Shown one piece after another: positions 1 through 6,484 of a stretch of DNA of 6,484 nucleotides. The notes under the pieces are model-generated. The model searched no databases and had not been told where the DNA came from. It saw only the letters and a program-made list of their open reading frames with translations. The translations under genes were made by a program, and so were the position numbers. This DNA is from Acidobacteriaceae bacterium. Lineage in GTDB: Bacteria; Acidobacteriota; Terriglobia; Terriglobales; SbA1. Where the stretch lies: assembly GCA_019237515.1 (NCBI GenBank), contig JAFAGX010000588.1, positions 1 to 6,484 on the forward strand, given 5' to 3'. How positions within the stretch are numbered: position 1 is the first letter of the stretch; each line of letters opens with the position of its first letter.

Positions 1-1
1 T

Positions 2-1201
2 AACGGCAGTTCCTTCGTGACCAGCCCTGCTAGCAAAAGTATGATGACTAGCGCCGCTGGCTATTCCAACAGTTCGCCACTTTCTGTGTCGTCCAACGGG
101 ATGACAGTGGGTACAGGCATCCTGTGGGCATCCAGCCCCTATTCGGGCGACGCCAATCGCGGCATTGTTCCTGGCATCCTCCGGGCTTTCGATGCCGCTG
201 ATCTCTCGGCTGAGCTTTGGGACAGCAAGATGAATGCTAACCGCGACGACGTGGGCAACTATGCCAAGTTCGTGCCGCCCACCATTGCAAATGGTAAGGT
301 CTATCTGGCTACTTTCTCCAACCAGTTGCTGGTCTATGGTCTGTTGAATTCCGCTGCCATTGCGGATTTTAGTATTGCAGCGACGGCATTTTCGCCGGCG
401 TCAATCTCTTCCGGAGCTTCAGCCACTTCCACAGTCACGATCACTCCGTCGAACGGTTTGACAGGTACAATCAATTTTTCTCCGACAAGCTGCACCGGTC
501 TGCCGGCAGGAGCTACTTGTTCGTTTAATCCATCGTCAATAACACTTGGCAGTGCCCCAGTTGCCTCGACTCTTACGATCGCAACCACCGGGGTAACACC
601 AGCGGGCACGTTTGACGTGAACATCTCCGCCACCTCAGGCGCGATCTCGCACACTACGACAGTGACGCTTATTACAGTTCCGCCAAGTCAGATATCAGGT
701 TTTAGTCTTGGGGTTTCCCCAAACTCGGCTTCAGTCAACTCAGGCAGTTCGGCTAGATACACGATTTCGGCAGTACCTCAGAATGGCTTTGCTGGTGTTC
801 TTTCGCTGACCTGCTCCGTTCCATCGAATGCCAAACTTGGTTGTTCGTTTAACCCTACGTCAATCACACCAGGTGTGACGTCTACCCTGACCGTAACATC
901 CACGGCTTCTACTGTGACATTGCTTGTCCCGAATAAGACCAAACTGTTACTCGCGTACGCGCTGTCATTGGCATTCCTTCTCGTAACTTTTGTGAGATCT
1001 GAGGCTCACAGCCGCAGAGTAGGCAGATATCTGGTACTGATTGTCATGATTGCACTCGTGACAGGCTGCGGAGGCGGCAGTTCTTCGACACCGAGCACTG
1101 GTGGTGCTCCGGGGACGCCTGTCGGGAATTACAACGTTGTGGTTACTGGCACTTCGGGCTCCCTGACACAGAGCGTCAATGTTGCATTGACGGTGCAGTA
1201 A
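2..1201 (+). CDS. PQQ-like beta-propeller protein with two Ig-like domains and a membrane/lipobox C-terminus (5' truncated)
   Basis: The frame is open from base 2 with no stop. GTG at 17 is only an internal valine codon, so the true start lies outside the window. The first 115 or so visible residues (to about 355) resemble the last blades of a PQQ-type propeller: 'GILWASSP', 'GILRAFDA', 'KFVPPTIANGKVYLATFSN', then 'LLVYGLL'. Two Ig-like beta domains follow, at about 365-685 and 698-916. Each has a cysteine pair (SC...TCSF and TCS...GCSF) that could form a disulfide. Next come a hydrophobic helix (about 944-991), a basic loop (SRRVGR), a second helix, the lipobox-like LVTGC (Cys codon 1067-1069), a GGGSSS linker and a 28-residue beta tail ending at TAA. 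It is probably exported and membrane-attached, with its substrate unknown. No terminator is visible before marR. The propeller family is likely; any enzyme activity is not supported, because the catalytic part would lie upstream. Confidence 0.8.
   Translation, partial: NGSSFVTSPASKSMMTSAAGYSNSSPLSVSSNGMTVGTGILWASSPYSGDANRGIVPGILRAFDAADLSAELWDSKMNANRDDVGNYAKFVPPTIANGKVYLATFSNQLLVYGLLNSAAIADFSIAATAFSPASISSGASATSTVTITPSNGLTGTINFSPTSCTGLPAGATCSFNPSSITLGSAPVASTLTIATTGVTPAGTFDVNISATSGAISHTTTVTLITVPPSQISGFSLGVSPNSASVNSGSSARYTISAVPQNGFAGVLSLTCSVPSNAKLGCSFNPTSITPGVTSTLTVTSTASTVTLLVPNKTKLLLAYALSLAFLLVTFVRSEAHSRRVGRYLVLIVMIALVTGCGGGSSSTPSTGGAPGTPVGNYNVVVTGTSGSLTQSVNVALTVQ
917..1201 (+). other. C-terminal cassette: TM helix, basic loop, TM helix, lipobox-like Cys, final Ig strands
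   Basis: Read directly from the translation: hydrophobic LLLAYALSLAFLLVTFV, basic RSEAHSRRVGR, hydrophobic YLVLIVMIALVTG, Cys, then a Gly/Ser/Thr linker. The last 28 codons (1115-1198) align without gaps to the last 28 codons of the first Ig-like domain (596-679). Nine residues are identical, including the TSG core, and most others are conservative. The cassette therefore appears to sit inside the second Ig-like domain, ahead of its final strands. The same arrangement recurs at 5102-5374. Confidence 0.7.
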
Positions 1202-1288
1202 TGCTCCAAAACGGTAATCTGCCATACGTGAAAACAGCGCAAAGTACACCGCACGCCGCTGCGACTGGCCGCCAGCGAATTGGGCGTC

Positions 1289-1317
1289 TTGACAGTATTC
1301 GTTACAACGAATAATAT
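1289..1317 (+). promoter_or_regulatory. marR promoter (sigma-70 type)
   Basis: The -35 is a perfect TTGACA at 1289-1294. Exactly 17 bases later lies TAATAT (1312-1317, 4 of 6 to consensus). An overlapping AATAAT (1310-1315) matches 5 of 6 but with a 15-base spacer. Either choice puts the transcription start at about 1321-1325, on or beside the GTG start codon of marR. The mRNA would then be leaderless or nearly so. The 18-bp operator fills the spacer. Confidence 0.65.
1296..1313. promoter_or_regulatory. Putative MarR operator O1
   Basis: TATTCGTTACAACGAATA is a perfect 8+2+8 inverted repeat. It lies between the -35 and -10 of the marR promoter, where a bound dimer would block RNA polymerase. 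Its length and position fit MarR-family operators. A second copy precedes yceI (1804-1821). Assigning it to the adjacent MarR protein is inference from position and duplication. Confidence 0.75.
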
Positions 1318-1323
1318 GAGGCC

Positions 1324-1788
1324 GTGACTGAACGTTCTCACTCCGTAAACAAGAGGCGCGGCGCCCCATCTCTAGAAGAAGGTGTGTTTTTGGACCTGAT
1401 GCGCACATGTGATCTGCTGGCGCGCGGCCCCGCCCAGGTGCTCAAGACGGAGGGCTTGTCCGCCACGCAATACAACGTACTGCGGATTCTGCGTGGCGCG
1501 CCAGACGGATTAGCGTGCGGGGAGATTGCTAACCGCATGATTACACGTGATCCCGACGTCACCCGCTTGCTGGACCGATTAGAAAAACGGGAACTAATCT
1601 CGCGCAGCCGGGAAACTGGCGACCGGCGAACGGTAATGACGCGGATCACGCCAGAGGGACTCAGGCTGGTAGGCCGCCTTGATGAGCCCGTCCAAGAGAT
1701 GCATCGCAAACAGTTGGGCCATTTGGGCAAAGCGCAGATTCGGGCGTTGGCTGACTTGATGGCTGCCATGCGGATTGGAGTCGGCTAA
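1324..1788 (+). CDS. MarR-family winged helix-turn-helix transcriptional regulator
   Basis: This 154-residue protein has the usual MarR length. An N-terminal dimerisation helix (about 19-41, VFLDLMRTCDLLARGPAQVL) leads into LSATQYNVLRIL (45-56). The DNA-binding region is GEIANRMITRDPDVTRLLDRLEKREL (66-91), with recognition helix about 78-90 and wing GDRRT (99-103), followed by ITPEG (108-112). These are hallmarks of the family, which acts as dimeric cytoplasmic repressors released by phenolics, electrophiles or oxidants. Two cysteines (29 and 65) could allow redox sensing, but nothing proves it. The GTG start has no well-spaced Shine-Dalgarno: a GAGG lies only 2 bases upstream. The promoter places the transcript start at this codon, so leaderless translation is likely. 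In-frame GTG 1384 and ATG 1399 are alternatives, but they would cut into the N-terminal dimerisation helix. It likely represses itself and yceI-pirin through O1 and O2. Confidence 0.92.
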   Translation: MTERSHSVNKRRGAPSLEEGVFLDLMRTCDLLARGPAQVLKTEGLSATQYNVLRILRGAPDGLACGEIANRMITRDPDVTRLLDRLEKRELISRSRETGDRRTVMTRITPEGLRLVGRLDEPVQEMHRKQLGHLGKAQIRALADLMAAMRIGVG

Positions 1789-1803
1789 TTTTTTACTCTC
1801 CTT

Positions 1804-1821
1804 TATTTGTTGCAACGAATA
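1804..1821. promoter_or_regulatory. Putative MarR operator O2, upstream of yceI
   Basis: TATTTGTTGCAACGAATA differs from O1 at one base in the left half-site and at the 2-base centre. It lies 16 bases after the marR stop and 42 bases before the yceI ATG. The yceI promoter is not clear. TATCGT (1820-1825), or TTGCAA (1810-1815) with TCTAAA (1835-1840), are weak candidates, and each overlaps the site. The copy suggests that the same regulator controls yceI and probably pirin. Confidence 0.7.
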
Positions 1822-1862
1822 TCGTGGTAACGCATCTAAAGTAAGCAGAAAGGAGAACTACC

Positions 1863-2420
1863 ATGGCGACAGTGGCTGTACCGCAAACTTCAACGAGTAC
1901 CTGGAACCTTGACCCTGCTCATACTTCGGCCGAGTTCAAAGTGAAGCACATGATGATCTCGAACGTGAAAGGGAATTTTTCAAAGCTTTCTGGAACATTG
2001 GTTCGAAACGAAGCCGACCACACGAAGTCTCGAATTGAGGCAGTGATCGATGCCTCGTCCATCGAAACGCGCGATCCGCAGCGCGACGCGCACCTAAAAA
2101 GCGCCGATTTCTTCGATGTGGAGAAATTTCCGACGCTATCATTCAAGTCCACTCGCATTAGCACCGCAGGCGAGGGCGAACTGGCGGTAGAAGGGGACCT
2201 AACGATCCATGGCGTGACTCGCAAAGTTACGTTTTCGGTAGAAGGACCGACGCCGCCAAGCAAAGATCCATGGGGCAACACGCGAATTGGTGTCTCCGCT
2301 ACGACCAAAATCAATCGAAAGGATTTTGGGCTGACCTGGAACGCGGCGCTTGAAACCGGTGGAATCCTGGTCGGCGACGAGGTAACCATCACTCTGGATG
2401 TTCAGTTCGTGAGAGCCTAA
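1863..2420 (+). CDS. YceI-family protein, cytoplasmic form
   Basis: This 185-residue protein spans one complete YceI domain. Visible family motifs are WNLDPAHTSAEFKVKHM (14-30), VKGNF (35-39), the conserved stretch around RDAHLKSADFFDVEKFPTL (74-92), LTIHGVTRKVTF (113-124), and the C-terminal INRKDFGLTWN (150-160) with GDEVTITLDVQF. YceI proteins are lipocalin-like beta-barrels. A Thermus member binds polyisoprenoid lipid, and others respond to alkaline or other stress, so a lipid or quinone carrier role is possible here. Many relatives are exported, but this N-terminus (MATVAVPQTSTST) lacks a hydrophobic signal peptide, so it is probably cytoplasmic. An excellent Shine-Dalgarno, AAAGGAG at 1849-1855, ends 7 bases before the ATG. 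O2 lies upstream, and pirin follows after a 54-base gap containing a hairpin. Confidence 0.93.
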   Translation: MATVAVPQTSTSTWNLDPAHTSAEFKVKHMMISNVKGNFSKLSGTLVRNEADHTKSRIEAVIDASSIETRDPQRDAHLKSADFFDVEKFPTLSFKSTRISTAGEGELAVEGDLTIHGVTRKVTFSVEGPTPPSKDPWGNTRIGVSATTKINRKDFGLTWNAALETGGILVGDEVTITLDVQFVRA

Positions 2421-2428
2421 GTAATTCA

Positions 2429-2460
2429 CTCCGCACCGCGATTTTGAACGCCGTGCGGAG
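2429..2460 (+). other. Intercistronic hairpin between yceI and pirin
   Basis: CTCCGCAC (2429-2436) pairs perfectly with GTGCGGAG (2453-2460). After one C-C mismatch, GCG (2438-2440) pairs with CGC (2449-2451), leaving the loop ATTTTGAA. No T tract follows, so it is not a standard intrinsic terminator. It ends directly beside the pirin ribosome site (GAGG 2462-2465, 9 bases before the ATG). It could stabilise the upstream message, mark a processing site or tune pirin translation. Confidence 0.6.
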
Positions 2461-2474
2461 AGAGGAAAACAACT

Positions 2475-3380
2475 ATGTCACTTAGACCAATCAGGCAGAT
2501 TATTCAACCGAAGCCAACGATCGAAGGCGCCGGTGTCAAGTTGCAACGCGCCTTTGGCTTCGGGAAAACCAAAGACTTCGATCCGTTTCTGCTTCTAGAC
2601 GATTTTCGCAGCGATAATCCCGATGACTACCGGGCCGGATTTCCCTGGCATCCACACCGGGGGATCGAGACGATCACATACGTGCTAGCGGGAAGTGTCG
2701 AGCATGGCGATAGCCTGGGCAACAAAGGAAAGATGACGGCGGGCGATGTGCAGTGGATGACCGCGGGAAGCGGCATTCTGCATCAAGAGATGCCGAAAGG
2801 CGATGCCAAGGGCAGAATGCACGGGTTCCAATTGTGGGCAAACCTGCCGTCGTCATTAAAGATGACTGATCCCCGTTATCAGGATATTCCGTCTAGCGAA
2901 ATTCCTGAAGTCACTGATGATGACGGAACGCGGGTACGGGTGGTATGCGGGGAGTTCTGGGGCAAAAGGGGATCGGTTGAGGGGGTCGCGGCGGATCCGA
3001 ACTATCTGGACATCTCTGTACCGGCAGGCCAACGCAAGCGGCTGAAAGTAGAGACCACCAGAAATGCATTCGCCTATGTGTTCGCGGGGGCAGGCACGTT
3101 TCGCGACGCTTCGGATGCGCGTGCGGTCCTGACCGAGCAAGCTGCTGATCCGAATGCGCCGGCGCGATACGACGTCGGCAACCATTCCTTAGTCTTGTTT
3201 GATCGCGGCGATGAAATCACGGTGCAGGCTGGACCGGAGGGAATCCGTTTCCTGCTGGTCTCGGGTAAGCCGATCGAGGAACCGGTTGCCTGGTACGGGC
3301 CCATCGTCATGAACACGCAGGAGGAATTACGGCAAGCTGTTTCCGAACTGCAGAGCGGCAGTTTTATTAAGCATCGGTAA
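2475..3380 (+). CDS. Pirin-family bicupin protein
   Basis: This 301-residue protein is close to the usual pirin length (about 230-300). The N-terminal cupin carries FDPFLLLDDF (35-44), FPWHPHRGIETITYVLAG (56-73) and GDVQWMTAGSGILHQEMP (90-107). His59, His61, His103 and Glu105 match the 3-His/1-Glu iron site of characterised pirins (human H56, H58, H101, E103). The C-terminal cupin (about 175-260) is degenerate, as is normal, and the family ending EEPVAWYGPIVMNTQEEL is present. Known pirins include quercetin dioxygenases and redox-sensitive transcription cofactors; the substrate here cannot be told. The intact metal site favours an iron-dependent enzyme or sensor. The gene sits in the same direction as yceI and probably shares its transcript. 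A terminator-like hairpin follows 25 bases after the stop. Confidence 0.95.
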   Translation: MSLRPIRQIIQPKPTIEGAGVKLQRAFGFGKTKDFDPFLLLDDFRSDNPDDYRAGFPWHPHRGIETITYVLAGSVEHGDSLGNKGKMTAGDVQWMTAGSGILHQEMPKGDAKGRMHGFQLWANLPSSLKMTDPRYQDIPSSEIPEVTDDDGTRVRVVCGEFWGKRGSVEGVAADPNYLDISVPAGQRKRLKVETTRNAFAYVFAGAGTFRDASDARAVLTEQAADPNAPARYDVGNHSLVLFDRGDEITVQAGPEGIRFLLVSGKPIEEPVAWYGPIVMNTQEELRQAVSELQSGSFIKHR

Positions 3381-3405
3381 AGCGAAGTTCGTGGCAACAA
3401 GGTCC

Positions 3406-3457
3406 AGCGCGGCACGGGGAATGCCACCGGAAATTTCTCGGCCGCGCTCAGTTTTTT
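3406..3457 (+). terminator. Rho-independent terminator after pirin
   Basis: AGCGCGGC (3406-3413) pairs perfectly with GCCGCGCT (3441-3448). Three bases later a T6 tract runs from 3452 to 3457. The 27-base loop is long for a terminator, which lowers confidence. The position just after the pirin stop fits the end of the marR-yceI-pirin unit. Confidence 0.6.
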
Positions 3458-3796
3458 GCAATCACTGAACTGACTCACTTACGTGATCGCGAGGTCATCG
3501 GACAATTAAGGTGATTCGGCTTCAGGAGTTCGCGAATCCACGTCGAATTCAATCACACTGCACGCCAGATCCCTCGGCCTGCTGGTAAATGTGCAGGCTA
3601 CTCGGGATGACCGTGGTCGTGCGCGCGTCATGACTCAGCCAGGTCAAGAATTATCCCCACTGCACAGCAATAACTTGACAATCAAATTACAAGTGAAGCC
3701 CAACAAAACTAGCCTCTCCTCGATCCAATCACTAGGTGTCCAAAGCTAGCTCGAAAAAGCAGCGCACACCTCTTCAAAACGAAAAGGACGAGGAAA
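3458..3796. other. Gene-free intergenic region
   Basis: No convincing coding frame is visible in this stretch. It holds a small hairpin, GCCTGC-N10-GCAGGC (3577-3598), and a perfect TTGACA (3675-3680) without a matching -10. ACTTG (3673-3677) and CAAGT (3690-3694) form a weak 5-base inverted repeat around that TTGACA. AGGTGT (3734-3739) and ACACCT (3766-3771) could pair over a 26-base loop. The promoter of the 3797 gene should lie here but cannot be assigned. The ribosome site is AAGGA at 3784-3788, 8 bases before the ATG. Confidence 0.5.
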
Positions 3797-5374
3797 ATGA
3801 AAAAAATAGCTTTGAGCTTGTTTATCGGTCTGCTCGCAATTCCTGCATTGATGTGGGGACAGCAAAATGCTTATAAGCAGACCAACCTGGTGTCGAACGT
3901 ATCGGGTGTAGCCCATACGACCGACTCACAATTATCGAACCCATGGGGTGTGGCATTCGTCGCGGGACAGGACTTCTGGATCGCTAACAACAATGGCGGT
4001 ACGTCTACTCTGTATGACGCGCAAGGAAACAAAGATATGGGGCTGGTGGTGACCATTCCCGGCGCTTCACACAATCCTAACGGCAATTGCAGCCCCGGTT
4101 GTCCGACCGGCGTTGTCGCAAACGGCAACGGCAGCTACTTCGGCGGTGGTCAATTCATTTACGACACCGAAGACGGGATCTTCGCGGTGTGGACGGGCGC
4201 GAGCAACACCGCATCGGTCGCGTTCGATAACTCCGCCAGCGGCGCAGTCTACAAAGGCATGGCTGTGCTCAATGGCACCTTTCTCCTAGCCGCGAATTTC
4301 AATAGCGGCAAGGTGGACGTGCTGGATCGGAATTTCACTCTGACATCGTTAAGTGGCTCCTTTACCGATCCGCACCTCGCTGCCGGCTTGGCCCCACACG
4401 GTATCAGCGTGATTGGGAACCAAGTATTTGTTGCATATGCGATGCAGGACGCCGCGAAGCACGATTCGCAACCCGGCGCAGGTTTGGGGCAGGTTGACAT
4501 TTTCGATAGCAATGGCAACTTTGTGAGTACTTTCGTGGCGGGCGGGAAGTTGAATGCACCATGGGGCATAGTCGCAGCACCGGCGGGCTTCGGAGCTTTT
4601 CCGAATGCAATTCTGATCGGAAATTTTGGCGACGGCACAATCAACGCGTTCGACACGACCGGGAAATTTCTTGGTCAACTCAGTGATAGTTCCGGAAAGG
4701 CTCTGAGTAATCCAGGGCTTTGGGACCTGACATTCGGTGGCGGTGGATCTTCGGGGGATTCCGGCACGCTTTATATCACTGCTGGGGGCAGCAATCAGCC
4801 CAACTTTCCTTCAGGAGGAAGTACCACGGCTGTGTTCGCCAGCATTGTTCCGGCAGCGACGGTGGGAAGTCCTGATTTCTCGCTGAGCCTATCTTCCCAG
4901 AGTGCGACTGTGGCGCAGGGAGGGTCAGCGACTGTGATGGTCAGTGCGAGCGCCGTGGGTGGATTTAACGGGCCAATTGCGCTCTCCTGTTCCGCTCCGG
5001 CGGGTTTGAATTGCGCGTTCAGTTCAAACAGCATCTCCCCGGGATCAAGCACTGCGTCATCGACCTTGACGATAATGGCAGCGTCCACGCCGCCGCCGAC
5101 AGGCTACGTAGTGAGCGCGATGAGCACGCTTCTACCCGGCTTCGGAGTGCTTGGGACGGTCTTGGTTGGCCGGAGAAAGAAGCTGTTTACTCGTAAGAGT
5201 GTTCTGTGGCTGAGCCTCGCTCTGGTCATTCTGGTTTCACTGTTCGCGTTGGGATGCGGCGGAGGTTCGAGCAACAAGTCAATGAATCCCGCTGGAACCC
5301 AGGTTAACTTGATGGTCACTGGAACATCAGGCGCTATCAGCCATTCCAGCGTAGTGGCGGTCACCATTCAGTAG
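3797..5374 (+). CDS. Secreted TIGR03118-like beta-propeller protein with Ig-like domain and membrane/lipobox C-terminus
   Basis: A Sec signal peptide (MKKIALSLFIGLLAIPALMWG, about 1-21) is followed by a propeller-type domain (about 22-355). Its repeated motifs are LSNPWGVAF, FWIANNNGGTSTLY, APHGISVIGNQVFVAYA, LNAPWGIVAAP and NPGLWDLTFGG. The pattern matches my recollection of the uncharacterised TIGR03118 family, whose function is unknown and some of whose members occur with PEP-CTERM sorting. An Ig-like domain (about 360-430) has a Cys pair (LSCSAPAGLNCAF). After a PPP linker come a moderately hydrophobic helix (about 437-457), the basic stretch GRRKKLFTRK (458-467), a strong helix (468-485), lipobox-like FALGC (Cys487), GGGSS and a 28-residue beta tail. 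The tail contains TSGAISH, identical to a stretch in the first Ig domain of the gene at the left edge. It is likely anchored in the envelope. AAGGA precedes the ATG and a strong terminator follows. Confidence 0.88.
   Translation: MKKIALSLFIGLLAIPALMWGQQNAYKQTNLVSNVSGVAHTTDSQLSNPWGVAFVAGQDFWIANNNGGTSTLYDAQGNKDMGLVVTIPGASHNPNGNCSPGCPTGVVANGNGSYFGGGQFIYDTEDGIFAVWTGASNTASVAFDNSASGAVYKGMAVLNGTFLLAANFNSGKVDVLDRNFTLTSLSGSFTDPHLAAGLAPHGISVIGNQVFVAYAMQDAAKHDSQPGAGLGQVDIFDSNGNFVSTFVAGGKLNAPWGIVAAPAGFGAFPNAILIGNFGDGTINAFDTTGKFLGQLSDSSGKALSNPGLWDLTFGGGGSSGDSGTLYITAGGSNQPNFPSGGSTTAVFASIVPAATVGSPDFSLSLSSQSATVAQGGSATVMVSASAVGGFNGPIALSCSAPAGLNCAFSSNSISPGSSTASSTLTIMAASTPPPTGYVVSAMSTLLPGFGVLGTVLVGRRKKLFTRKSVLWLSLALVILVSLFALGCGGGSSNKSMNPAGTQVNLMVTGTSGAISHSSVVAVTIQ
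5102..5374 (+). other. Second copy of the split Ig-domain C-terminal cassette
   Basis: Residues 436-525 repeat the plan seen at 917-1201: hydrophobic segment, basic loop (GRRKKLFTRK), hydrophobic segment, Gly-Cys-Gly-Gly-Gly, polar linker, then 28 residues of beta-strand tail with VTGTSG. The Ig-like domain before it stops after TLTIMAAS without its usual closing strands, and the tail supplies sequence that looks like those strands. Confidence 0.68.
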
Positions 5375-5385
5375 AAACGAAGACG

Positions 5386-5419
5386 CGGCAGGGCGCAGGC
5401 TTTGGCGCCCTGCTGTTTT
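5386..5419 (+). terminator. Rho-independent terminator after the TIGR03118-like gene
   Basis: GCAGGGCGC (5388-5396) pairs with GCGCCCTGC (5405-5413) in a perfect 9-bp stem. A G-T wobble and a C-G pair extend it to 11 pairs from 5386 to 5415. The 8-base loop is AGGCTTTG. TTTTCACTTTT follows at once. It begins 11 bases after the stop codon. On the minus strand no T run follows, so it should act mainly on the plus-strand gene. Confidence 0.85.
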
Positions 5420-5480
5420 CACTTTTCCGTAGCGGCTAATTATGTTCGGAATCACCGATGCAATTCAGTACCGTCAGTCA

Positions 5481-5849
5481 CTAGGATTCAGTTATCGGTG
5501 GCCGGCTTGGACGAAGCACAAGCAGGGGTAAACCGACGGCTGTGAATATTGCTACGCCGAGAAGGTGATCCTGGCGAGCGCTGGCGTCGCGTAGTCCCAT
5601 AATTGCCATCACAAACGCGTGAGCGAAACTCGACCATGCGGCGAAGGCAATCAGGCTGCGGTGTGCCCATGGATTCCGCACTGAGAGCAGCAATAAAATA
5701 CCAAGAGTGATGTAAATGGCTCCCATCATGGCGTCGGTGTAGCCGGCCTGGTCGCGGTTCCAGAGGATCGAGGCGACCGGATAGATCGCGGCGGTGAAAA
5801 GCAGCCCGATAACCACGAGGGCGAATTGTAGCGCGCGTTCTCGTGACAT
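5481..5849 (-). CDS. Small four-helix membrane protein, DUF6632-like
   Basis: This 122-residue protein starts MSRERALQFALVV. The ATG at 5849-5847 is chosen because GGAGGA lies 6 bases upstream. The open frame extends 36 codons further, but that part is Cys/Ser-rich, overlaps the permease gene and lacks a ribosome site. Four hydrophobic helices are visible: ALQFALVVIGLLFTAAIYPV, AMMGAIYITLGILLLLSV, SLIAFAAWSSFAHAFVMAIM and LLGVAIFTAVGLPLLVL. The motifs NPWAHRSLIAFAAWSSFAHA and DHLLGV match my memory of the uncharacterised DUF6632 family; that name is from recall and could be wrong. It follows the ABC permease gene by 37 bases in the same direction, so co-transcription is plausible. No function can be assigned. 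Confidence 0.8.
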   Translation of the reverse strand: MSRERALQFALVVIGLLFTAAIYPVASILWNRDQAGYTDAMMGAIYITLGILLLLSVRNPWAHRSLIAFAAWSSFAHAFVMAIMGLRDASARQDHLLGVAIFTAVGLPLLVLRPSRPPITES

Positions 5850-5855
5850 TCTGGA

Positions 5856-5861
5856 TCCTCC
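5856..5861 (-). promoter_or_regulatory. Ribosome binding site fixing the DUF6632-like start
   Basis: Read on the minus strand, GGAGGA is a near-perfect Shine-Dalgarno, 6 bases before the ATG at 5849. It decides the start against a longer open frame beginning at 5957. Confidence 0.85.
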
Positions 5862-5869
5862 ATCAGACA

Positions 5870-5893
5870 AATTTAGATGCGCGCATCTAGATT
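5870..5893. repeat. 24-bp palindrome over the permease stop codon
   Basis: The core TAGATGCGCGCATCTA (5874-5889) is a perfect 16-bp palindrome. Beyond one mismatched pair (5873/5890), three more pairs (5870-5872 with 5891-5893) extend it to 24 bp. It contains the TAG stop of the permease gene (5889-5887) and ends 8 bases from the ribosome site of the next gene. It could be an operator or an intercistronic RNA hairpin. No T tract follows on the minus strand, so a terminator is less likely. Confidence 0.7.
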
Positions 5894-6484
5894 GGGCCAC
5901 GATAGCAGCGCATGCGCACTGCTGCGACGAGGAACACAGCCGCCAGTGCGAGCCCAAGCCACAGTGGCGGCGCGGACAGATATCGAAGGGGCGTCAGATG
6001 TGTCATGGGACCGGTTGGAAACATCTCGCCTGAAGTGATCTCGGCTGGCGCTCCTCCGCCGACCAGGCGGTGGCCTACGATGGCGACGAAATGCGACGTG
6101 TGGAATACGAGTTTCTCGATACCGCCGATTGCGATTACTGGCAAGGCGGCCCATAACAATGTTGCGCGGCGCACCCAGCCAGAGACCAATATCAGCCAGC
6201 AATAAACGGGAAGAGGCCATATCGCATGCGCCAGGAAGAGGTGATAGGCCAACATACCCCACATCTGAAAGATTGATACTTCTCTCCACACCGAGGCCAC
6301 ACTCATGCCGCTGGCCGGCAGCACAATCGCGCTCATAAGCAGCATTATCACGTGCATGGCAATCGTGACCGCAATCGTGATCAGCGGCAGAACAATCAGG
6401 GGAACGCTTGCTTTTGCAAGCACGATACTGACATCGGAAACTGGCAACGATTTCCAGAACAGGATGCTGCGGTCGCGGCGCTCG
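5887..6484 (-). CDS. ABC-2 type transporter permease, C-terminal part (5' truncated by window edge)
   Basis: The frame is open to the right edge. About 198 residues are visible, and TTG at 6447 is an internal leucine, not the start. The visible beginning, ERRDRSILFWKSLPVSD, is a cytoplasmic signature I recognise from ABC-2 type permeases, where it is typically followed by V(L/I)AK and long hydrophobic helices. At least four membrane segments follow: VPLIVLPLITIAVTIAMHVI, the YHLFLAHAIWPLPVYCWLIL region, LLWAALPVIAIGGIEKLVF and LWLGLALAAVFLVAAVRMR. A soluble loop rich in Gly and Pro (GGGAPAEITSGEMFPTGP) precedes the last helix. Such permeases usually work with an ATPase encoded upstream, here beyond the window. 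The transported substrate is unknown. The stop TAG lies inside a palindrome, and the DUF6632-like gene begins 37 bases downstream. Confidence 0.85.
   Translation of the reverse strand, partial: ERRDRSILFWKSLPVSDVSIVLAKASVPLIVLPLITIAVTIAMHVIMLLMSAIVLPASGMSVASVWREVSIFQMWGMLAYHLFLAHAIWPLPVYCWLILVSGWVRRATLLWAALPVIAIGGIEKLVFHTSHFVAIVGHRLVGGGAPAEITSGEMFPTGPMTHLTPLRYLSAPPLWLGLALAAVFLVAAVRMRCYRGPI

Follow-up and report, generated by a model that had tools for sequence, protein, structure and literature searches.

The window analysed here, a stretch of 6,484 nucleotides from an Acidobacteriaceae bacterium (GCA_019237515.1, contig JAFAGX010000588.1, positions 1-6,484), contains two open reading frames (ORFs), at 2-1201 (protein 1, open at the window start) and 3797-5374 (protein 2), each encoding a protein whose last immunoglobulin (Ig)-like domain is split by a membrane hairpin. 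In both proteins this domain stops after strand E, a membrane helix then leads through a basic loop to another helix with G-C-G at its end, and the final 28 residues correspond to the missing strands F and G. Both ORFs agree with their description in an earlier note made from the DNA alone, and the idea put forward there, that an Ig fold is completed by strands lying beyond a membrane hairpin, is well supported by complementary profile halves and by structure models. A point absent from that note is that helix 2 together with GCGGG is built like a lipoprotein signal peptide and its lipobox. We propose, leaning modestly towards this reading, that the E-F loop of the split Ig domain carries an internal lipoprotein signal which would be processed by Lgt and LspA, leaving the docked F-G hairpin as a C-terminal lipid anchor. 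Since the tail family has already been named (NCBIfam release 20.0, NF058595.1 invert_tail, “lipo-invert putative C-terminal anchoring domain”), what is new is confined to the splitting of the Ig domain, the reappearance of this arrangement in a second Ig family and the suggested mechanism.

The two halves of the Ig-like domain

Relatives were gathered in two protein searches, from which the best 120 of 133 and the best 120 of 600 matches were used (240). A filter found a hydrophobic segment ending in cysteine near the C-terminus in 209 of the 240, and these reduced to 69 proteins at 60% identity, including the two window proteins (P0001 and P0121). Among the 31 relatives dropped, P0018 and P0079 carry the cysteine cassette yet escaped the filter, P0005 is cut by a contig end, and the other 28 had no hydrophobic hairpin by a simple hydropathy test. 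Against a profile of 99 positions made from 13 intact Ig-like domains, a body match was obtained in 69/69 proteins, ending at median position 73, and a tail match in 69/69, starting at median position 69 and as a rule ending at 99. Since the body ends at about 73 and the tail starts at about 69, the two are complementary halves of one domain. The tails scored a median of 23.0 bits against this profile, shuffled tails a mean of 1.4 (standard deviation 2.4, maximum 9.8), and in 68 of the 69 proteins the real tail outscored all 20 of its own shuffles; the resemblance of the tail to the Ig domain is therefore beyond chance. The row for P0022 in these split and shuffle counts used a cysteine in helix 1, not the true site.

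The two window proteins fit this picture individually. The gap-free match between 596-679, in the intact Ig domain of protein 1, and its tail at 1115-1198 is exact in position, with 9/28 residues identical, and the heptapeptide TSGAISH does occur once in each protein, at residue 211 of protein 1 (intact domain) and residue 510 of protein 2 (tail), both as the earlier note had it. In a second set, drawn from genome loci, an Ig-like tail was present in 60 of 74 candidate ORFs, which reduced to 45 at 60% identity; the body half was found in 43 of these 45, which had been selected for their tail match. This set is partly dependent, as 14 of the 45 are relatives of protein 2 with its TIGR03118 domain and the rest were found with NF058595. 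The 14 candidates dropped include four evident tails of another type or with a longer hairpin (L082, L096, L103 and L114).

In AlphaFold models the tail strands have high confidence in both window proteins and belong to a complete Ig-like beta sandwich. The split domain can be superposed on a single continuous Ig-like domain (97 residues, 2.1 Å), and the tail of protein 2 is included in the structural overlay on 2ber 404-502, from which the tail strands would be expected to pack onto the body. An Ig domain closed before the helices, which the earlier note had named as evidence against its proposal, is not what the models contain; the tail strands complete the fold. Completion of the fold by these strands is thus supported by profile and model together. 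The structural matches include chaperone-usher proteins, which rely on strand exchange, and after cleavage the hairpin would be a separate chain; both points would suit a reading in which the F-G hairpin, once freed, inserts into the Ig domain of a second molecule and joins subunits as in donor-strand exchange. However, the hairpin belongs to one unbroken chain until cleavage, a single chain closes the fold in the models and the overlay shows only a shared fold, so that we consider such an exchange very improbable and claim no relation to the chaperone-usher proteins.

A second Ig family, Big_3_5, appears to be split in the same way. The tail of L103 scores 22.7 bits against the Big_3_5 profile and 4.9 against the first Ig profile, while its last body half gives only a weak match (1.9 bits). 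With L103 as query, 10 proteins were obtained (six at 60% identity), and in 10/10 of those listed the body match ends at 62-74 and the tail match starts at 62-68 of 93 positions. Tail and body belong to the same family in 78 of 79 proteins (69 + 10), the exception being a near tie of 4.4 vs 4.7 bits; since the L103 query spanned body and tail, this agreement is partly selected for. The L103 C-terminus gave weak matches only, in 19 of 80 genomes from the order of Granulicella mallensis (G007, via locus L024), and among the loci scored the only others with a better Big_3_5 tail score are L109, through an inserted domain, and L114, which is doubtful. To judge from these alignments, splitting at the E-F loop is a feature shared by two Ig families. 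That two dissimilar families are cut at the same loop by a like hairpin is the strongest sign that completion of the Ig domain is the point of the arrangement.

The invariant cysteine and its possible processing

The cysteine after helix 2 is the only invariant column in two alignments, A1 (84 sequences) and A2 (68 varied sequences). In both window proteins it lies at the end of the hydrophobic segment and is preceded by glycine, alanine or serine. One of these three residues stands directly before the cysteine in 69/69 proteins, while each of the five positions further upstream has one in 17-24 of the 69, and their background in helix positions -14 to -2 is 32%; the same holds for 45/45 proteins of the second set and 10/10 of the Big_3_5 form. 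The loops of the 69 proteins contain 298 lysines and arginines vs 7 aspartates and glutamates, and the cysteine lies 34-50 residues from the C-terminus in 66 of the 69. Since an invariant cysteine is preceded by glycine, alanine or serine, as in a lipobox, helix 2 resembles a lipoprotein signal peptide placed inside the chain. In bacterial lipoproteins the anchor is N-terminal, and the tail is not filed as a classical lipoprotein because its signal is not at the N-terminus of the precursor. GCGGG as such is not a motif, as the residues after the cysteine are often serine in other genomes and the constant part is the cysteine with the residue before it.

The linker from the cysteine to strand F varies in length, about 9-23 residues. 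In L109 and P0117 a whole extra domain lies between the cysteine and the F-G hairpin (138 and 133 residues after the cysteine), so the linker tolerates a folded insertion. By analogy, a variable and insertable linker of this kind could be a lipoprotein tether. Two attempts at a yardstick from N-terminal lipoproteins were of no help: with a crude filter the genome G106 gave 36 candidates, 19 with glycine, alanine or serine before the cysteine, and 83 loci gave 25 candidates, several of them apparently pieces of tail genes. A scan of 1.6 Mb of G106 (1314 ORFs) for other C-terminal cysteine hairpins returned 29 candidates, of which four looked like Ig tails and 25 like polytopic or unrelated proteins; it recovered four of the five NF058595 places known in those stretches.

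In the sequence of events that we envisage, strands A-E would be exported, helix 1 would enter the inner membrane and the basic loop would stay in the cytoplasm, a topology suggested by the charge of the loop. Helix 2 would then return, placing the lipobox cysteine on the outer face, and strands F-G would be exported and dock onto strands A-E. Lgt would add a diacylglyceryl group to the cysteine and LspA would cut before it. The product would be a short, N-terminally lipidated peptide, with its F-G hairpin inserted non-covalently in the Ig domain of the large chain. This means that lipid anchoring would be shifted from the N-terminus to the C-terminal end, with the N-terminal domains facing away from the membrane, and that release to the outer membrane would need a further cut freeing the large chain from helix 1. 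We infer lipidation, cutting and destination alike, the processing by Lgt and LspA because a lipobox-like site and both enzymes are present: among 20 tail-bearing genomes, taken from the 23 phylum-sample genomes over the NF058595 cut-off (tail-free genomes having none over it), LspA has exactly one match and Lgt (PF01790) at least one in 20/20. Put more generally, the Ig domain would serve as a snap-fit coupling, in which LspA cuts the signal in the E-F loop and the lipidated F-G hairpin stays docked, in at least two Ig families and on many secreted proteins of one order; to this wider formulation we give an even chance.

Several points weigh against processing by Lgt and LspA. With the lipobox patterns as commonly known, the strict one, [LVI][ASTVI][GAS]C, fits 22 of the 69 sites only and the relaxed one 53 of 69 (136/483 control positions), most of the 16 failures having proline at -2 or a cysteine or proline nearby; protein 1 fits both patterns and protein 2 the relaxed one alone. 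The lipid would not be the sole anchor, since the large chain keeps helix 1 and the cut helix 2 after LspA. No extra LspA copy was found in the 20 tail-bearing genomes, and two of 20 tail-free genomes have two. AlphaFold, furthermore, sees neither membrane nor cleavage. A plainer explanation is that the hairpin is left uncut, as a two-helix inner-membrane anchor in the E-F loop with the Ig domain closed on the outer face and the cysteine unmodified or lipidated without cutting. The fold and topology require no processing, helix 1 by itself would anchor the protein, and the scarcity of strict lipobox sites speaks for it too. However, it leaves unexplained an invariant cysteine that is always preceded by glycine, alanine or serine when these make up under a third of the upstream helix, and we regard it as rather unlikely, though deserving of serious weight.

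At least two PF01790 matches are present in 18/20 tail-bearing vs 14/30 tail-free genomes (12 without two gene-fragment cases), and G035 and G133 have one Lgt match each, yet 12 tail-family matches each. A divergent second Lgt-family gene (in G007, G048, G106 and others; L243-L248) sits among genes common to most of six neighbourhoods, which were not scanned for tails. An extra Lgt as dedicated enzyme is only a lead, because of the single-copy, tail-rich G035 and G133 and because the divergent copy lies among shared genes.

The earlier note had also raised co-occurrence with a sortase or exosortase-like gene. An exosortase or other sortase-like protease might recognise helix 1 as a PEP-CTERM-like signal, with helix 2 and the tail as accessories, and this would fit both the presence of exosortase (PF09721) in 17/20 tail-bearing vs 6/20 tail-free acidobacterial genomes and the PEP-CTERM-like tails that relatives of protein 2 can have elsewhere. 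The difference in presence is confounded by lineage, however, and the invariant feature is the cysteine after helix 2, with no invariant column before helix 1. Three of the 20 tail-bearing genomes (G019, G035 and G191, whose completeness is not given) have no PF09721 match and yet hold 16, 12 and 11 tail-family matches. Since these genomes are tail-rich, exosortase is not a required partner, the proposed link finds no support, and of all the explanations we give this one the least credence. No dedicated protease was found in searches for exosortase, LspA and Lgt.

The tail family, its carriers and the window

Both window proteins pass the curated NF058595 cut-off of 37 bits (protein 1, 92.5; protein 2, 50.2), and 68/68 members of A2 match this family, which is thus the same tail; four of the 10 proteins of the Big_3_5 form also reach the cut-off. 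Compared by name only, NF058595 seems to be read at NCBI as a lipoprotein-like C-terminal anchor, and the split Ig fold is absent from that name. The remark in the earlier note that the tail has no described function agrees with the literature searched, in which no paper was found for “lipo-invert” or NF058595, related phrases included; the domain, however, had already been named. Judged from titles and abstract openings, nothing alike turned up for lipoboxes at internal or C-terminal positions, lipidation at the C-terminus, Ig folds that are split, or CTERM signals; PMC9287161, in the part available, deals with ordinary signal peptides. TIGR03118 is mentioned by name in a single paper among those searched.

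The sequences of A2 carry a range of other domains, including FG-GAP repeats, Big_3_5, ASH-like, choice-of-anchor D, kelch, NHL and PASTA. A single tail shared by such diverse carriers is what a sorting or anchoring signal would show, and the “anchoring or sorting device” of the earlier note, which is also the reading at NCBI, is plausible from the sequences. The tail is not confined to the two window genes, the outcome that would have spoken against such a device: 79 of the 80 genomes of the Granulicella mallensis order are over the NF058595 cut-off, and 56 of the 80 have at least 10 matches at E <= 0.001, weak and partial ones included. In a phylum sample at least 23 of 199 genomes were over the cut-off (at most 21 candidates were scored per genome), and 20 of those 23 recur in the 80-genome draw of the order. 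One of 99 Planctomycetota genomes was over the cut-off; since its match covers only positions 73-113, in evenly spaced repeats, it represents intact Ig domains. None of the 14 named control genomes was over the cut-off, and a myxobacterial genome (G009) had two matches, both under it.

Among 22 relatives of protein 2 whose C-termini were read, the tail is present in four (L020, L023, L026 and L028). The 18 without it (L025, L027, L029-L036, L040, L042, L045, L054, L059, L060, L065 and L067) belong for the most part to other lineages; for L027 and L031 the order is not established. Two of them, L032 and L040, are TIGR03118 proteins of other lineages with PEP-CTERM-like ends where protein 2 has the split-Ig tail, so anchors seem interchangeable on one carrier.

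The features of the two proteins are collected in Table 1. Protein 2 starts with an apparent Sec signal peptide, and its TIGR03118 domain spans residues 26-333. The protein 1 tail (1109-1198) also matches Pfam DUF5980 weakly, at positions 65-94 of 97 (17.9 bits, cut-off 27.1), and because of this match DUF5980 may be the same Ig-like family. The interval between the tailed genes (1324-3380) holds three ORFs, head to tail. Two of them, for a MarR-like regulator and a YceI-like protein, match NCBIfam only below curated cut-offs, and the last, without an NCBIfam match, may be pirin-like. Nothing links any of the three to the split-Ig feature. On the minus strand, 5481-5957 and 5887-6483 hold two ORFs whose products resemble small multi-helix membrane proteins.

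Table 1. Positions of the split Ig-like domains and their cassettes in the window (pLDDT, predicted local distance difference test; K/R, lysine or arginine)
Feature	Position	Strand	Evidence
Protein 1, strands F and G of the intact Ig-like domain (internal control)	596..679	+	Model strands E85-95, E98-108; 9/28 identical to tail, gap-free
Protein 1, split Ig domain, strands A-E (approximate ends)	692..910	+	Intact-Ig profile 2-72, 51.5 bits; last body strand E176-183 of model
Protein 1, membrane helix 1	935..994	+	Inside model helix H195-216; mean hydropathy 2.54
Protein 1, basic loop, predicted cytoplasmic	995..1027	+	4 K/R, 1 acidic
Protein 1, membrane helix 2, putative internal lipoprotein-like signal peptide, end V-T-G	1028..1066	+	Hydropathy 2.64; strict and relaxed lipobox fit
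Protein 1, invariant Cys 356, proposed lipidation and cleavage site	1067..1069	+	Sole invariant column of A2 (68 sequences)
Protein 1, tail, strands F and G closing the Ig domain	1115..1198	+	E258-268, E271-281, pLDDT block means 90-97; profile match to 99, 26.9 bits
Protein 2, TIGR03118 domain, then split Ig domain and cassette	3797..5374	+	TIGR03118 267.1 bits, NF058595 50.2 bits
Protein 2, split Ig domain, strands A-E (approximate ends)	4871..5086	+	Profile 1-73, 35.9 bits; model strands E6-11 to E66-74
Protein 2, membrane helix 1	5129..5170	+	Overlaps model helix H95-104, pLDDT block means 51-55; hydropathy 1.72
Protein 2, basic loop RRKKLFTRK	5171..5197	+	6 K/R, 0 acidic
Protein 2, membrane helix 2, putative internal lipoprotein-like signal peptide, end A-L-G	5198..5254	+	Hydropathy 2.44; relaxed lipobox fit, not strict
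Protein 2, invariant Cys 487, proposed lipidation and cleavage site	5255..5257	+	Sole invariant column of A1 (84 sequences)
Protein 2, tail, strands F and G closing the Ig domain	5288..5371	+	E147-157, E160-170, pLDDT block means 94-96 from model residue 151; in overlay on 2ber 404-502

Comparison with known systems

If the proposal is true, one acidobacterial order anchors many secreted proteins C-terminally with ordinary Lgt and LspA, and it does so by means of a domain split around a signal peptide. This would give a concrete way of testing a tail whose NCBI name goes no further than a putative anchor, would aid the annotation of many uncharacterised surface proteins per genome in soil bacteria, and may offer a natural two-piece coupling for placing proteins on membranes.

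In the signal itself there is a likeness to the bacterial lipoproteins processed by Lgt and LspA, which share with the tail a basic n-region, a hydrophobic stretch, a cysteine preceded by glycine, alanine or serine and a tether rich in glycine and serine. In the tail, however, the signal is internal, near the C-terminus and behind a first membrane helix, and the lipid would be carried by a hairpin of about 40 residues that is non-covalently held. In the donor-strand complementation of pili, an incomplete Ig fold is completed by a separate strand, a feature shared with the split domain; here, however, two strands do so, both come from the gene product that they complete, and a membrane hairpin intervenes. 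PEP-CTERM proteins, the substrates of exosortase, likewise have a C-terminal membrane helix followed by basic residues, whereas in the split-Ig proteins a second helix, a cysteine and an Ig-completing tail follow, and exosortase is not required.

MYXO-CTERM, as far as the available part of its description goes, is a C-terminal signal with an invariant cysteine, found on dozens of carriers per genome and restricted to a lineage, and lipidation of the cysteine was proposed by the authors (PMC11980579). The split-Ig tail resembles it in being a C-terminal signal with an invariant cysteine, many carriers and a restricted lineage. In MYXO-CTERM, on the same partial account, the cysteine motif precedes the helix, a defined lipobox is lacking and cleavage releases a C-terminal peptide (PMC11980579). 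In the split-Ig tail the cysteine comes after two helices and the C-terminal piece forms a structural part of the protein, which sets the tail apart from MYXO-CTERM as there described.

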